Position numbers and translations under genes: made by a program. Below, piece after piece: positions 48,336 to 50,489 of a DNA stretch of 64,000 nucleotides. Source of the stretch: Variovorax paradoxus B4 (GTDB lineage Bacteria > Pseudomonadota > Gammaproteobacteria > Burkholderiales > Burkholderiaceae_C); NCBI RefSeq assembly GCF_000463015.1, contig NC_022247.1, positions 2,232,001 through 2,296,000 of the forward strand, in the 5' to 3' direction. Below the pieces are notes generated by a model. It had not been told where the DNA came from, did no database searches, and was given only the letters and a program-made list of their open reading frames with translations. Positions within the stretch are counted from its first letter, which is position 1. Each line of letters begins with the position of its first letter.

Positions 48336-48740
48336 TCAGAGGTCTTCGATGACCAGCGTGCGATAGCGCTGCGCGATCGAATAGGGCACGGTGCGCACCA
48401 CCTCCATCAAGTGGTTGGCTGCGTCTTCGTTCTTCGTCCTGACCAGCAGGCCCGTGTGGCCTTCGCGCGCCAGCTTGGTGTAGGCGCGCACGGTGGCCGC
48501 GTCGGTTCCGGCCGAAGGCAGCGGCTCGTCGGCTTCCCTCACGGTGGGGGTGATCTCCTCCAGGATCGTTGCCGCGGGAAGCAGGTAGATCTCGTCGCCG
48601 CTCACGCCGTTTTCGATCAGTTTGTGACCGATGCGGTTGGCGTCTTCCGCGCTTGGAAACATCACCATCGAATAGCCTGTGGGATAGAAGGCGCCGCCGA
48701 TGCTCGAGCGCATGCGGGGCTCCAGAACGAAATTCTTCAT
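48336..48740 (-). CDS. Hypothetical stress-type cytoplasmic protein
   Basis: A 134-residue soluble protein without membrane or signal segments. It contains AFYPTGYSMVMFPSAEDANR and GDEIYLLPAATILEEI, and LLVRTKNEDAANHLMEVVRT; the two halves resemble each other as alpha/beta repeats found in general-stress (GsiB/YflT-like) proteins, but I cannot name a family. It ends 24 bases from the convergent antiporter gene. The ATG is preceded by GGAG-like GGCAGCATC only weakly. Confidence 0.65.
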   Translation of the reverse strand: MKNFVLEPRMRSSIGGAFYPTGYSMVMFPSAEDANRIGHKLIENGVSGDEIYLLPAATILEEITPTVREADEPLPSAGTDAATVRAYTKLAREGHTGLLVRTKNEDAANHLMEVVRTVPYSIAQRYRTLVIEDL

Positions 48741-48986
48741 GATGCTGCCTCCTGATGATGCAGTTCTTTGTCCACGACACTAGGCCTGCTGCCGACGCAG
48801 CGCTGTAGGCCTGCTCCCCGTATTCCCGCAGGTTTGGCGCGGCAGTCTCGGCGCCAGCCGGCCGGCCTCTTGTACACTTCCATCTGCATGTCGTGCCATC
48901 TCTTCCCCGCCACCGTCTGCGTAGCCTCCCTGGCCCGCATGATGCCGCCTGCCTTCGCGTGGGCGGAGGGGTCATTGGTTGCACGA

Positions 48987-49019
48987 ATGATTACCACCAT
49001 TACCAACGCGGCCACCTGA
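48987..49019 (+). CDS. Thr/Ile-rich leader peptide of homoserine dehydrogenase
   Basis: A 10-residue ORF, MITTITNAAT, with four Thr and two Ile, 111 bases before hom. It resembles the E. coli thrL peptide (STTITTTITITT). GGAGGGG lies 15 bases upstream of the ATG, a long spacing; an in-frame TTG at 48975 is too close to it. It is followed by overlapping hairpins and an intrinsic terminator before hom, the layout of transcription attenuation by threonine and isoleucine. Confidence 0.75.
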   Translation: MITTITNAAT

Positions 49020-49052
49020 GCACGCGCAGGTGGCCGTTTCGGCAGCCACCTG
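49009..49052 (+). promoter_or_regulatory. Alternative leader hairpins of hom
   Basis: CGGCCACCTG (49009-49018), inside the leader ORF, pairs over 10 bases with CAGGTGGCCG (49027-49036). The latter can instead pair with GCCACCTG (49045-49052). GCCA/CTGG of that third segment can in turn pair with CCAG/TGGC at 49086-49096 within the terminator. These exclusive pairings fit an attenuator switch; the model is by eye. Confidence 0.6.
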
Positions 49053-49081
49053 GTGTATCGCTCTTCTTCTCCGAATGAATG

Positions 49082-49115
49082 AAACCCAGCTCTGGCAGCT
49101 GGGTTTCTTGTTTTT
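49082..49115 (+). terminator. Attenuator terminator before hom
   Basis: AAACCCAGCT (49082-49091) and AGCTGGGTTT (49097-49106) form a perfect 10-bp stem with loop CTGGC, followed by CTTGTTTTT. It lies between the Thr/Ile leader peptide and hom, ending 15 bases before the ATG, so it must be read through for hom expression. Confidence 0.88.
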
Positions 49116-49130
49116 CATCCGGAGAATTCC

Positions 49131-50489
49131 ATGTACCGCGATCCAGTCCAGTCCCTCGAACCCCTGCCCAGCCGCCCCGCGGCCATTCGCGCGCTGCGCG
49201 TGGGCATGATCGGCATCGGCACCGTCGGCTCCGGCACATTCCGGGTGCTGGCGCGCAACCAGGCCGAGATCGCGGGGCGGGCGGGCCGCCCCATCGAGCT
49301 GGTGATGGTGGCCGCGCGCAACCTGGTGCGCGCCGCCGCCATCGTGGGTGCGGATGTTCCCTTGACGGACGAACCGCTGCGCGTGGCCACCCACCCCGAC
49401 GTCGACGTGGTGGTCGAAGTGGCCGGCGGCACCGGACCGGCGCGCGAATGGGTGCTGGCCGCCATCGCGCACGGCAAGCATGTGGTCACGGCCAACAAGG
49501 CCCTGCTCGCGGTGCATGGCGCCGAGATCTTTGCCGCGGCCCGGCGGCATGGGGTGGCCGTGGCCTACGAAGGCGCGGTGGCGGTGAGCATTCCCATCGT
49601 CAAGGCGCTGCGCGAAGGCCTTGCGGCCAACCGCATCGAATGGGTGGCGGGCATCATCAACGGCACCACCAACTTCATCCTGAGCAAGATGCGCGATGAA
49701 GGCCTGGACTTCGCGGCCGCGCTCGCGCAGGCCCAGGCGCTCGGCTATGCGGAAGCCGATCCGGCCTTCGACATCGAGGGCATCGACGCCGCGCACAAGC
49801 TCACGCTGCTGGCCGCCAATGCCTTCGGCACCTCCGTGCGGCTTGCCGATGTGCAGGTGGAAGGCATCACGGCCTTGCAGCGGGTGGACGTGGCCTGCGC
49901 CGAGCAGCTGGGCTACCGCATCAAGCTGCTGGGCGTGGCGCGGCGCCGGGAAGAGGGCGTGGAGCTGCGCGTGCAGCCCGCGCTGGTGCCTGCGTCGCAC
50001 CTGATGGCGCATGTGAACGGGTCGATGAATGCCGTCATGGTCAAGGGCGATGCGTCCGGCGTGACGATGTACTACGGCGCAGGCGCCGGCTCCGAACAGA
50101 CCGCATCGGCGGTGATTGCCGACCTGGTCGACGTGGCGCGGCTCGACGGCACCCACGCCGCGCAGCGCGTGCCGCACCTCGGCTTCCATCTGCACGCCAT
50201 GAGCGAACTCCCGGTGCTGCCCCGCGCCGCCGCGTGCTGCGCGCACTACCTGCGCATACCCGTGCATGCCGCGAGTCACGTCGAGGCGGTGTCGGGCTGG
50301 CTGGCCGGGCAGCAGGTGCCGGTGCAGCAGGTGGCGCTGGCGGCTGCGCAGCCCGGCATGGGCGCGCAGGTGCTGGTGCTGACGCAGCCGGTGCGGCAGG
50401 GCGCGATGGACCTGGCGCTGCATGCGCTGCAGGCGCATCCCTCGGTCGCAGGCAAAGTGGCGGCGCTGTGCGTGGAGGCGCTGGCCTGA
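49131..50489 (+). CDS. hom: Homoserine dehydrogenase
   Basis: A 452-residue enzyme converting aspartate semialdehyde to homoserine in threonine, methionine and isoleucine synthesis. The NAD(P)-binding GMIGIGTVGSGTFRVL, HVVTANKALLAVHG, WVAGIINGTTNFILSKM and AEADPAFDIEGIDAAHKL (catalytic Asp/Lys region) are all present. The C-terminal part resembles an ACT domain but lacks the usual PGVL turn. It stands without thrB, thrC or aspartate kinase neighbours. GGAG lies six bases before the ATG. The upstream Thr/Ile leader and terminator suggest attenuation control. Confidence 0.93.
   Translation: MYRDPVQSLEPLPSRPAAIRALRVGMIGIGTVGSGTFRVLARNQAEIAGRAGRPIELVMVAARNLVRAAAIVGADVPLTDEPLRVATHPDVDVVVEVAGGTGPAREWVLAAIAHGKHVVTANKALLAVHGAEIFAAARRHGVAVAYEGAVAVSIPIVKALREGLAANRIEWVAGIINGTTNFILSKMRDEGLDFAAALAQAQALGYAEADPAFDIEGIDAAHKLTLLAANAFGTSVRLADVQVEGITALQRVDVACAEQLGYRIKLLGVARRREEGVELRVQPALVPASHLMAHVNGSMNAVMVKGDASGVTMYYGAGAGSEQTASAVIADLVDVARLDGTHAAQRVPHLGFHLHAMSELPVLPRAAACCAHYLRIPVHAASHVEAVSGWLAGQQVPVQQVALAAAQPGMGAQVLVLTQPVRQGAMDLALHALQAHPSVAGKVAALCVEALA

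Follow-up and report, generated by a model that had tools for sequence, protein, structure and literature searches.

In the window analysed here, a stretch of 64 kb that forms part of the 7.1-Mb genome of Variovorax paradoxus B4, a homoserine dehydrogenase gene is preceded by a reading frame ending in Thr and Ile codons, by RNA arms that can pair in more than one way and by an intrinsic terminator. This arrangement raises the question of whether expression of the gene is controlled by a ribosome translating a leader peptide and, if so, which amino acids would be sensed and in which direction the control would act. Our analysis points to a probable answer: a ribosome-mediated attenuator of the second homoserine dehydrogenase gene of the genome, in which a stalled ribosome would lead to read-through and a ribosome moving at full speed to termination.

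The leader region and the second hom gene

The gene, designated hom2, and the elements associated with its leader are listed below.

48873 to 48878, plus strand: -10-like hexamer TACACT, predicted leader promoter, with a predicted start near 48885
48888 to 49019, plus strand: leader peptide ORF of 43 codons and TGA, MSCHLFPATVCVASLARMMPPAFAWAEGSLVARMITTITNAAT, predicted to be leaderless; frame kept in 82/82 loci
48987 to 49007, plus strand: control codons -10 to -4, which read M I T T I T N here and, in many relatives, M I T T I T T
49009 to 49018, plus strand: arm 1, overlapping the leader stop codon; 10 bp with arm 2
49027 to 49036, plus strand: arm 2, common to helices 1:2 and 2:3; eight 2:3 pairs invariant in the genus alignment
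49042 to 49053, plus strand: arm 3, common to helices 2:3 and 3:4; cross-pairing, and two-sided changes in 3:4
49086 to 49099, plus strand: antiterminator partner of arm 3, comprising the terminator 5' arm, the loop and the start of the 3' arm; covariation
49081 to 49107, plus strand: intrinsic terminator hairpin 4:5, 11 bp, loop CTGGC; terminator scan and covariation
49108 to 49115, plus strand: U-rich terminator tail, TTGTTTTTCA; terminator scan
49069 to 49078, plus strand: 5' half of a lower stem beneath the terminator, pairing with 49115-49124 with one mismatch in the window
49115 to 49124, plus strand: 3' half of the lower stem, which contains the Shine-Dalgarno of hom, GGAG (49121-49124); cross-pairing
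49131 to 50489, plus strand: hom2, second homoserine dehydrogenase, 452 aa; NCBIfam NF004976, 500 bits

The peptide MITTITNAAT (48987-49019), the arms and the terminator were all found where a sequence-only reading of this DNA had placed them, with helices of 10 bp, 8 bp (2:3, 49027-49034 with 49045-49052) and 11 bp. The terminator, described in that reading as standing just before hom, consists of the 11-bp hairpin and its U-rich tail and lies upstream of the hom2 start codon, the ATG at 49131. None of 200 dinucleotide shuffles folded as well as the region 49005-49110 (z -4.57). The isolated hairpins of the window are of similar strength, with energies of -22.0 (1:2), -16.5 (2:3), -19.1 (3:4) and -17.1 (4:5) kcal/mol. 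Helix 2:3 (49027-49052) lies outside the terminator (49081-49107), which is overlapped by 3:4.

Leader ORF and helices, whose lack of conservation the sequence-only reading had named as one finding that would speak against it, were found to be conserved: the block, the arms and the terminator are present at 39/39 hom2 loci of the genus (38 relatives and the window), the loop letters CTGG are identical in the 39 genus sequences, and the leader frame is kept at all 82 loci from the genus and beyond. The same layout was also found at 42 loci in 16 other genera of the family, 39 of which precede a hom gene. The first covariance model, R1, matched 47 genomes, one of them a weak extra; the second, R2, rebuilt on the family alignment, matched 46/399 family genomes, in 17/141 genera, at E < 1e-6. 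Two weak family matches unlike the leader (L088 and L089) and one genome with E 0.007 (G245) were left out of the counts. A search for the exact pattern of arm 2 plus arm 3 gave 84 matches on named contigs, and among the matches listed (80 of the 84) Variovorax, Acidovorax, Giesbergeria, Simplicispira, Rhodoferax and Pseudorhodoferax were represented, which confirms the family as Comamonadaceae. When R2 was applied to the whole order, 57/399 genomes were matched at E 0.01, with three strong matches, all within the family; 10 of the 54 weakly matching genomes were inspected by eye; seven look like ordinary terminators and three were thrS leaders.

The leader and the second hom gene occur together. 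A search for hom proteins in 61 genomes of the genus found hom1 in nearly all and a second copy in 39, and in a tree of 21 hom1 and 21 hom2 proteins the two groups were split by one branch with 100/100 support. Two hom copies were found in 27/30 leader-bearing genomes (in one of them, G358, hom2 is in two pieces); the remaining three carry one hom copy and retain only the end of hom2. A single copy was found in 26/26 sampled genomes with no leader match, the search being made at E 1e-80, where fragments would be missed.

The sequence-only reading had spoken of a hom gene without thrB and thrC. Neither was found among the five proteins scanned around the leader, hom included, and it can now be added that this genome has two hom copies, of which this gene is the second. 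No Pfam ACT match was obtained for hom2 up to E 10, hom1 of the same genome has a Pfam ACT domain (E 1.2e-10), and the C-terminal stretch of hom2 aligns with hom1 more poorly than the remaining protein does. The hom2 enzyme is presumably less sensitive to Thr than hom1 and would be controlled by the attenuator instead.

In three species of one genus (L074, L078 and L080) the leader precedes a C-terminal hom2 remnant of 114-119 aa and the body of hom2 has been lost. The remnant resembles only the C-terminal domain at the ACT position and is 45-61% identical to the hom2 of a sister species. At L037 and L081 hom2 seems to be broken into two overlapping pieces each, and the leader is still there. 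On the other side of the leader, a 134-aa protein is encoded upstream on the minus strand (48336-48740), with no Pfam match at E 0.001.

Pairing of the arms across genera

A cross-pairing test was performed on 54 sequences from 17 genera, in which the pairing of each arm with its own partner was compared with its pairing to partners from other genera (20000 genus permutations). All four helices were found to fit their own partners, with p 0.0003 for 1:2, 0.00005 for 2:3 and < 0.00005 for 3:4 and 4:5; these values are optimistic, because the genera were treated as independent though they are related, an effect limited by the control pairings. None of the latter was significant (1:4, p 0.30; 1:5, p 0.53; 2:5, p 0.23; 3:5, p 0.065). 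Since all four helices fit their own partners across genera and the four other pairings are non-significant, sequence comparison indicates a conserved, mutually exclusive RNA switch, in agreement with the mutually exclusive pairings of the sequence-only reading.

Base pairs with changes on both sides were also counted directly, in 53 sequences and 500 shuffles. Such changes were seen in one pair of 1:2 (G-C to A-U, 4 cells), in three pairs of 3:4 (15 cells) and in three pairs of 4:5 (8 cells). For these three helices the cell counts were above all 500 shuffles, and the numbers of pairs were matched by 163/500 (1:2), 83/500 (3:4) and 1/500 (4:5) shuffles. No pair of 2:3 showed a two-sided change in the 53 sequences, so that the support for this helix comes from the cross-pairing test. 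Examples of compensatory replacement are GGTCA/TGACC in L062 against GGCCA/TGGCC in L067, GGTCG/CGACC in L086 and L087, and GCCTGGTGG with CCGCCAAGGC in L075.

Inside the genus (39 loci) no helix showed a two-sided change, because the sequences are too conserved. The check by helix covariation that had been suggested for this leader thus had a mixed outcome: positive across genera by cross-pairing, negative inside the genus and, for two-sided changes, at 2:3. Two further details count against the helices as drawn. Helix 4:5 slid by +1 scored higher covariation than in register (0.110 vs 0.078), and two of the eleven pairs of 3:4 are unpaired, in 22/53 and 30/53 sequences. The proposal that arm 3 disrupts the terminator is supported by the results for 3:4; only the extent of the pairing had to be revised, to 49042-49053 with 49086-49099.

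Ribosome position and direction of control

In the mechanism that we favour, transcription would begin at the leader ATG or a few bases before it, and a ribosome would translate the leader of 31-50 codons, chiefly kept for its frame, before meeting a block of Met, Ile and Thr codons. Shortage of charged tRNA for any of these amino acids would stall the ribosome before arm 1 is covered; 1:2 would then pair, leaving arm 3 free to pair with the terminator 5' arm and loop, and the polymerase would enter hom2. Fast reading of the block would cover arm 1, so that 2:3 would pair, the terminator 4:5 would form and transcription would stop. Should a message nevertheless be read through, the lower stem of this hairpin would mask its ribosome site for hom2. 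In the absence of translation, read-through would occur, making ON the default state.

The effect of ribosome position was modelled for 17 genera by masking all RNA behind a ribosome edge that was moved along the leader, and folding the remainder, and in this model the position of the ribosome switches the fold. With the RNA extending through arm 4, 1:2 was accompanied by 3:4 in 17/17 genera for edges up to 49009; for edges 49013-49026, 2:3 was preferred in 12 to 16 of 17, with 3:4 ahead in 1 to 5; and for edges from 49029, 3:4 was favoured again, in at least 13/17 genera. With the complete terminator, 3:4 was ahead in 11 to 14 of 17 genera for edges 48997-49008, the window being an exception, and in 0/17 for edges 49015-49025. 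In the window, with the edge at 48997, the equilibrium was 4:5 over 3:4 even with 1:2 formed (9.1 vs 1.6 bp); 3:4 would therefore have to win there by forming first, since the equilibrium prefers the complete 4:5. The idea that the fold alone decides the outcome was rejected, given that the equilibrium favours the terminator in the window.

The position of the codons relative to the switch point depends on the footprint of the ribosome. With a footprint of 7-9 nt past the A-site, codons -10 to -5 lie no further than the switch point, and the stop codon falls in the OFF range; with 12 nt, codons -10 to -7 alone give ON, the OFF range includes codons -5 and -4 and, with the ribosome at the stop codon, 3:4 is favoured in 13/17 genera before arm 5 exists. 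The proposal that a ribosome at the stop codon allows 2:3 to pair and leads to termination therefore holds with the smaller footprint and is ambiguous with the larger one. A large footprint for the trp ribosome, as suggested by passages of PMC1183508, would count against the 7-9 nt case. The model nevertheless suggests a polarity in which starvation turns hom2 ON, and an increase in hom mRNA on shortage of Thr or Ile would fit the modelled switch points. We hold the identity of the element as an attenuator firmly and its polarity less so, because the state at the stop codon depends on the footprint assumed.

Leaders of a similar kind were found before another gene. Three weak order-level matches (L179, L181 and L185), in genomes of two other families, precede a second thrS. 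The leaders before the second thrS (L188, L189 and L190) each encode, in frame, a peptide of 39-42 aa in which six or seven Thr codons stand close to the end; by eye, the start ATG follows a -10-like stretch, so that these leaders are predicted to be leaderless, and the 1:2:3 arms are of the same kind. No U-tailed terminator was seen at the three loci. Single-strand folding shows the GGAG of thrS paired with arm 3 when arm 2 is not available, and released when 2:3 pairs. A model built on the thrS leader recovered only the same 3/399 genomes. According to these folds, the second-thrS leader may be a related switch with a read-out opposite to that of hom2, in which 2:3 means ON. That read-out would make sense for a gene whose product is required once Thr-tRNA is uncharged, and the thrS and hom2 leaders may be related.

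The opposite polarity for hom2 itself appears rather unlikely. A ribosome reaching the stop codon at full speed would mask arm 2, 3:4 would form and hom2 would be ON when Thr is plentiful, a Thr-insensitive enzyme keeping homoserine for Met while Thr inhibits hom1. This would agree with the advantage of 3:4 over 2:3 at the stop codon, before arm 5, in those 13/17 genera when the edge is set 12 nt past the A-site, with a hom2 that has no recognisable ACT domain beside a hom1 that has one, and with a related thrS leader apparently built for 2:3 = ON. However, once the terminator is complete, with the edge at 49029, 4:5 prevails in the window (10.8 vs 0.0 bp) and 3:4 is ahead in 6/17 genera; stalling on the earliest Thr codons would then likewise be ON, so that little regulation would be left; and the gap from the leader stop codon to arm 2, 10 nt in the window, is larger than in trpL.

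The lower stem brings in the ribosome site of hom2. Its two sides were found to fit each other in the cross-pairing test, both across 12 genera (p 0.0000 to four decimals) and in the genus (39 loci, p 0.0004); 73/81 loci were usable and eight, in which the hairpin or the GGAG was unrecognised, were left out. This stem could hide the hom2 ribosome site, and comparison of the loci makes it likely that a translational layer lies on top of termination control. We regard as unlikely the stronger version, in which control is mainly translational, the hairpin serving to hide the ribosome site and termination being minor. The cognate pairing of the stem containing the GGAG would suit it, as would the thrS relative, which has no terminator and whose arm 3 hides the GGAG. 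By eye, moreover, the U-tail is absent or weak at 4/82 loci from three genera (L068, L071, L072 and L075), which suggests that their hairpins, with no proper U-tail, represent a translational variant. Against it, the terminator is canonical and U-tailed in the window and, by eye, at 78/82 loci, and its helix covaries.

Leader peptide, control codons and known attenuators

One of 13 allowed -10-like hexamers was found 12-18 nt (mode 15) before an in-frame ATG at 82/82 loci, TACACT at 71 of them, and at none of the 82 did an out-of-frame ATG come first 10-20 nt after the hexamer. A promoter scan recognised no sigma-70-like promoter with a -35 at the leader. The leader is predicted to be leaderless because the predicted start lies at the ATG or a few bases before it.

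The frame of the Thr block is free of stop codons back to this upstream ATG at all 82 loci. The ORF is 31-50 codons long, and several lengths, always in frame, occur in 9/10 genera with several loci. Codon-position bias was absent from the upstream part, both in 27 sister pairs (121:115:111) and in 207 overlapping pairs (1512:1251:1280); as none was seen, it was dropped as a proof of coding. With this bias absent, only the keeping of the frame argues for translation of the leader, and the upstream part appears to be conserved in frame and free in sequence.

Codons -10 to -4 are of a different kind. Met, Ile and Thr account for 93.2% of 574 residues there vs 12.6% of 2438 upstream. At the 82 loci, codon -9 is Ile in 71, Met in 9 and Thr in 2, codon -6 is Ile in 62, Met in 19 and Thr in 1, and Val or Leu never occurs at either. 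The leader stop codon is TGA in 59 loci, TAG in 23 and TAA in none. Homoserine gives rise to three amino acids, namely Met, Ile and Thr, and the codon counts indicate that Met codons form part of the control block along with those for Thr and Ile.

MITTITNAAT had been taken for the whole leader peptide. Its character as a Thr/Ile-rich control block is confirmed, but its start is not, since all 82 frames are open to an upstream ATG (48888 here). In the window GGAGGGG lies 15 nt 5' of the ATG at 48987, a motif absent in most relatives, and no Shine-Dalgarno is present at the usual spacing. The ATG at codon -10 is found in 73/82 loci and missing in 9/82, and in one genus two loci (L071 and L072) begin the block without a Met. 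Because the usual Shine-Dalgarno is missing, the ATG is not constant and the frame is open to 48888, the ATG at 48987 probably encodes an internal Met, MITTITNAAT being only the end of the leader. That translation starts at 48987 and yields MITTITNAAT alone is very doubtful: the frequency of the ATG and the lack of codon-position bias upstream would agree with it, but the upstream frame would then have been kept at 82/82 loci despite many length changes. Least probable of all is an element that senses no amino acid, a fixed terminator plus hairpins for protein binding or small-RNA production, since the very high sequence conservation in the genus and the lack of a matching Rfam family, which would suit it, stand against codon identities in the block that are far from random and arms that fit as mutually exclusive partners across genera.

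The thrL leader of the E. coli thrABC operon, named Thr_leader in Rfam, has Thr and Ile codons, a terminator before a homoserine-synthesis gene and mutually exclusive helices. The attenuator that we propose for hom2 resembles it in the Thr and Ile codons of the leader ORF, the terminator, the mutually exclusive helices and the use of ACC as main Thr codon; eight ACC codons are given for the thr leader in passages of PMC1183508. It differs from thrL in preceding a stand-alone second hom in Comamonadaceae, in being predicted leaderless, with 31-50 aa, a control block at the end and Met codons included, and in its four overlapping helices, where covering of arm 1 is predicted to result in termination. 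In thrL and trpL, 2:3 overlaps the terminator and serves as antiterminator; in the hom2 leader the antiterminator is 3:4, and 2:3 is clear of the terminator. The description as thrL logic with a different helix arrangement is therefore apt, and the arrangement is conserved in 17 genera. The hom2 leader also matches no Rfam family, unlike thrL: with Rfam 15 at the gathering cut-off, T-box and SAM riboswitch included, neither the window nor any of 19 related loci gave a match, and up to E 10 the nine matches in 48880-49200 did not include the thr leader.

Vitreschak reportedly predicted in 2004 an attenuator of thrA in Pasteurellales that senses Thr, Ile and Met. The sensing of Met besides Thr and Ile would be common to both, whereas that thrA is bifunctional and belongs to gammaproteobacteria. 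In Sinorhizobium meliloti the trpL RNA begins with the trpL ATG, according to passages of PMC7298713 and PMC10117765, providing a leaderless leader-peptide ORF of an attenuator, as predicted for hom2; that peptide differs in having 14 aa, in sensing Trp, and in its gene and bacterial class. For ilvBNC of Corynebacterium glutamicum, which differs in gene, bacterium and the amino acids involved, passages of PMC11857589 describe terminator, antiterminator and anti-antiterminator hairpins under leader-peptide control. Pausing at its control codons lets the antiterminator form; in hom2 a stall is predicted to lead to 1:2, which would free arm 3. Titles and abstract starts of the open-access literature, to which the search was confined, revealed no such hom leader in the group among the matches listed, and the passages of PMC8632094 on other leader ORF motifs name neither Variovorax, Acidovorax nor homoserine.

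We tentatively suggest that the hom2 leader represents a Burkholderiales-specific class of leaderless attenuators, in which a four-helix cascade would be read by the position of the ribosome on a Met/Ile/Thr block. One leader would report all three homoserine-derived amino acids, the default would be ON when untranslated, termination and the ribosome site would be controlled jointly, and the three-arm switch would have been reused with the opposite read-out before the second thrS. If true, threonine-family attenuation would extend to betaproteobacteria, and it would be explained how a second hom with no recognisable regulatory domain could stay silent until a homoserine-derived amino acid is short. 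Two features would also become open to test in this system: a leaderless leader peptide that is retained only for its frame, and a three-arm switch of one kind that acts with opposite read-outs upstream of two genes.

A search for a second copy of the leader in its own genome gave weak matches only, and one of three inspected was a terminator before the ordinary thrS. Inspection by eye of the ordinary thrS of several Burkholderiales, with L193, L197, L211, L212, L216 and L217 left out, revealed, in this genome (L175) and at L194, L195, L200, L202, L208, L209 and L214, a strong terminator together with a short ORF that contains Thr (MTPRTTP... is one example), possibly another attenuator.
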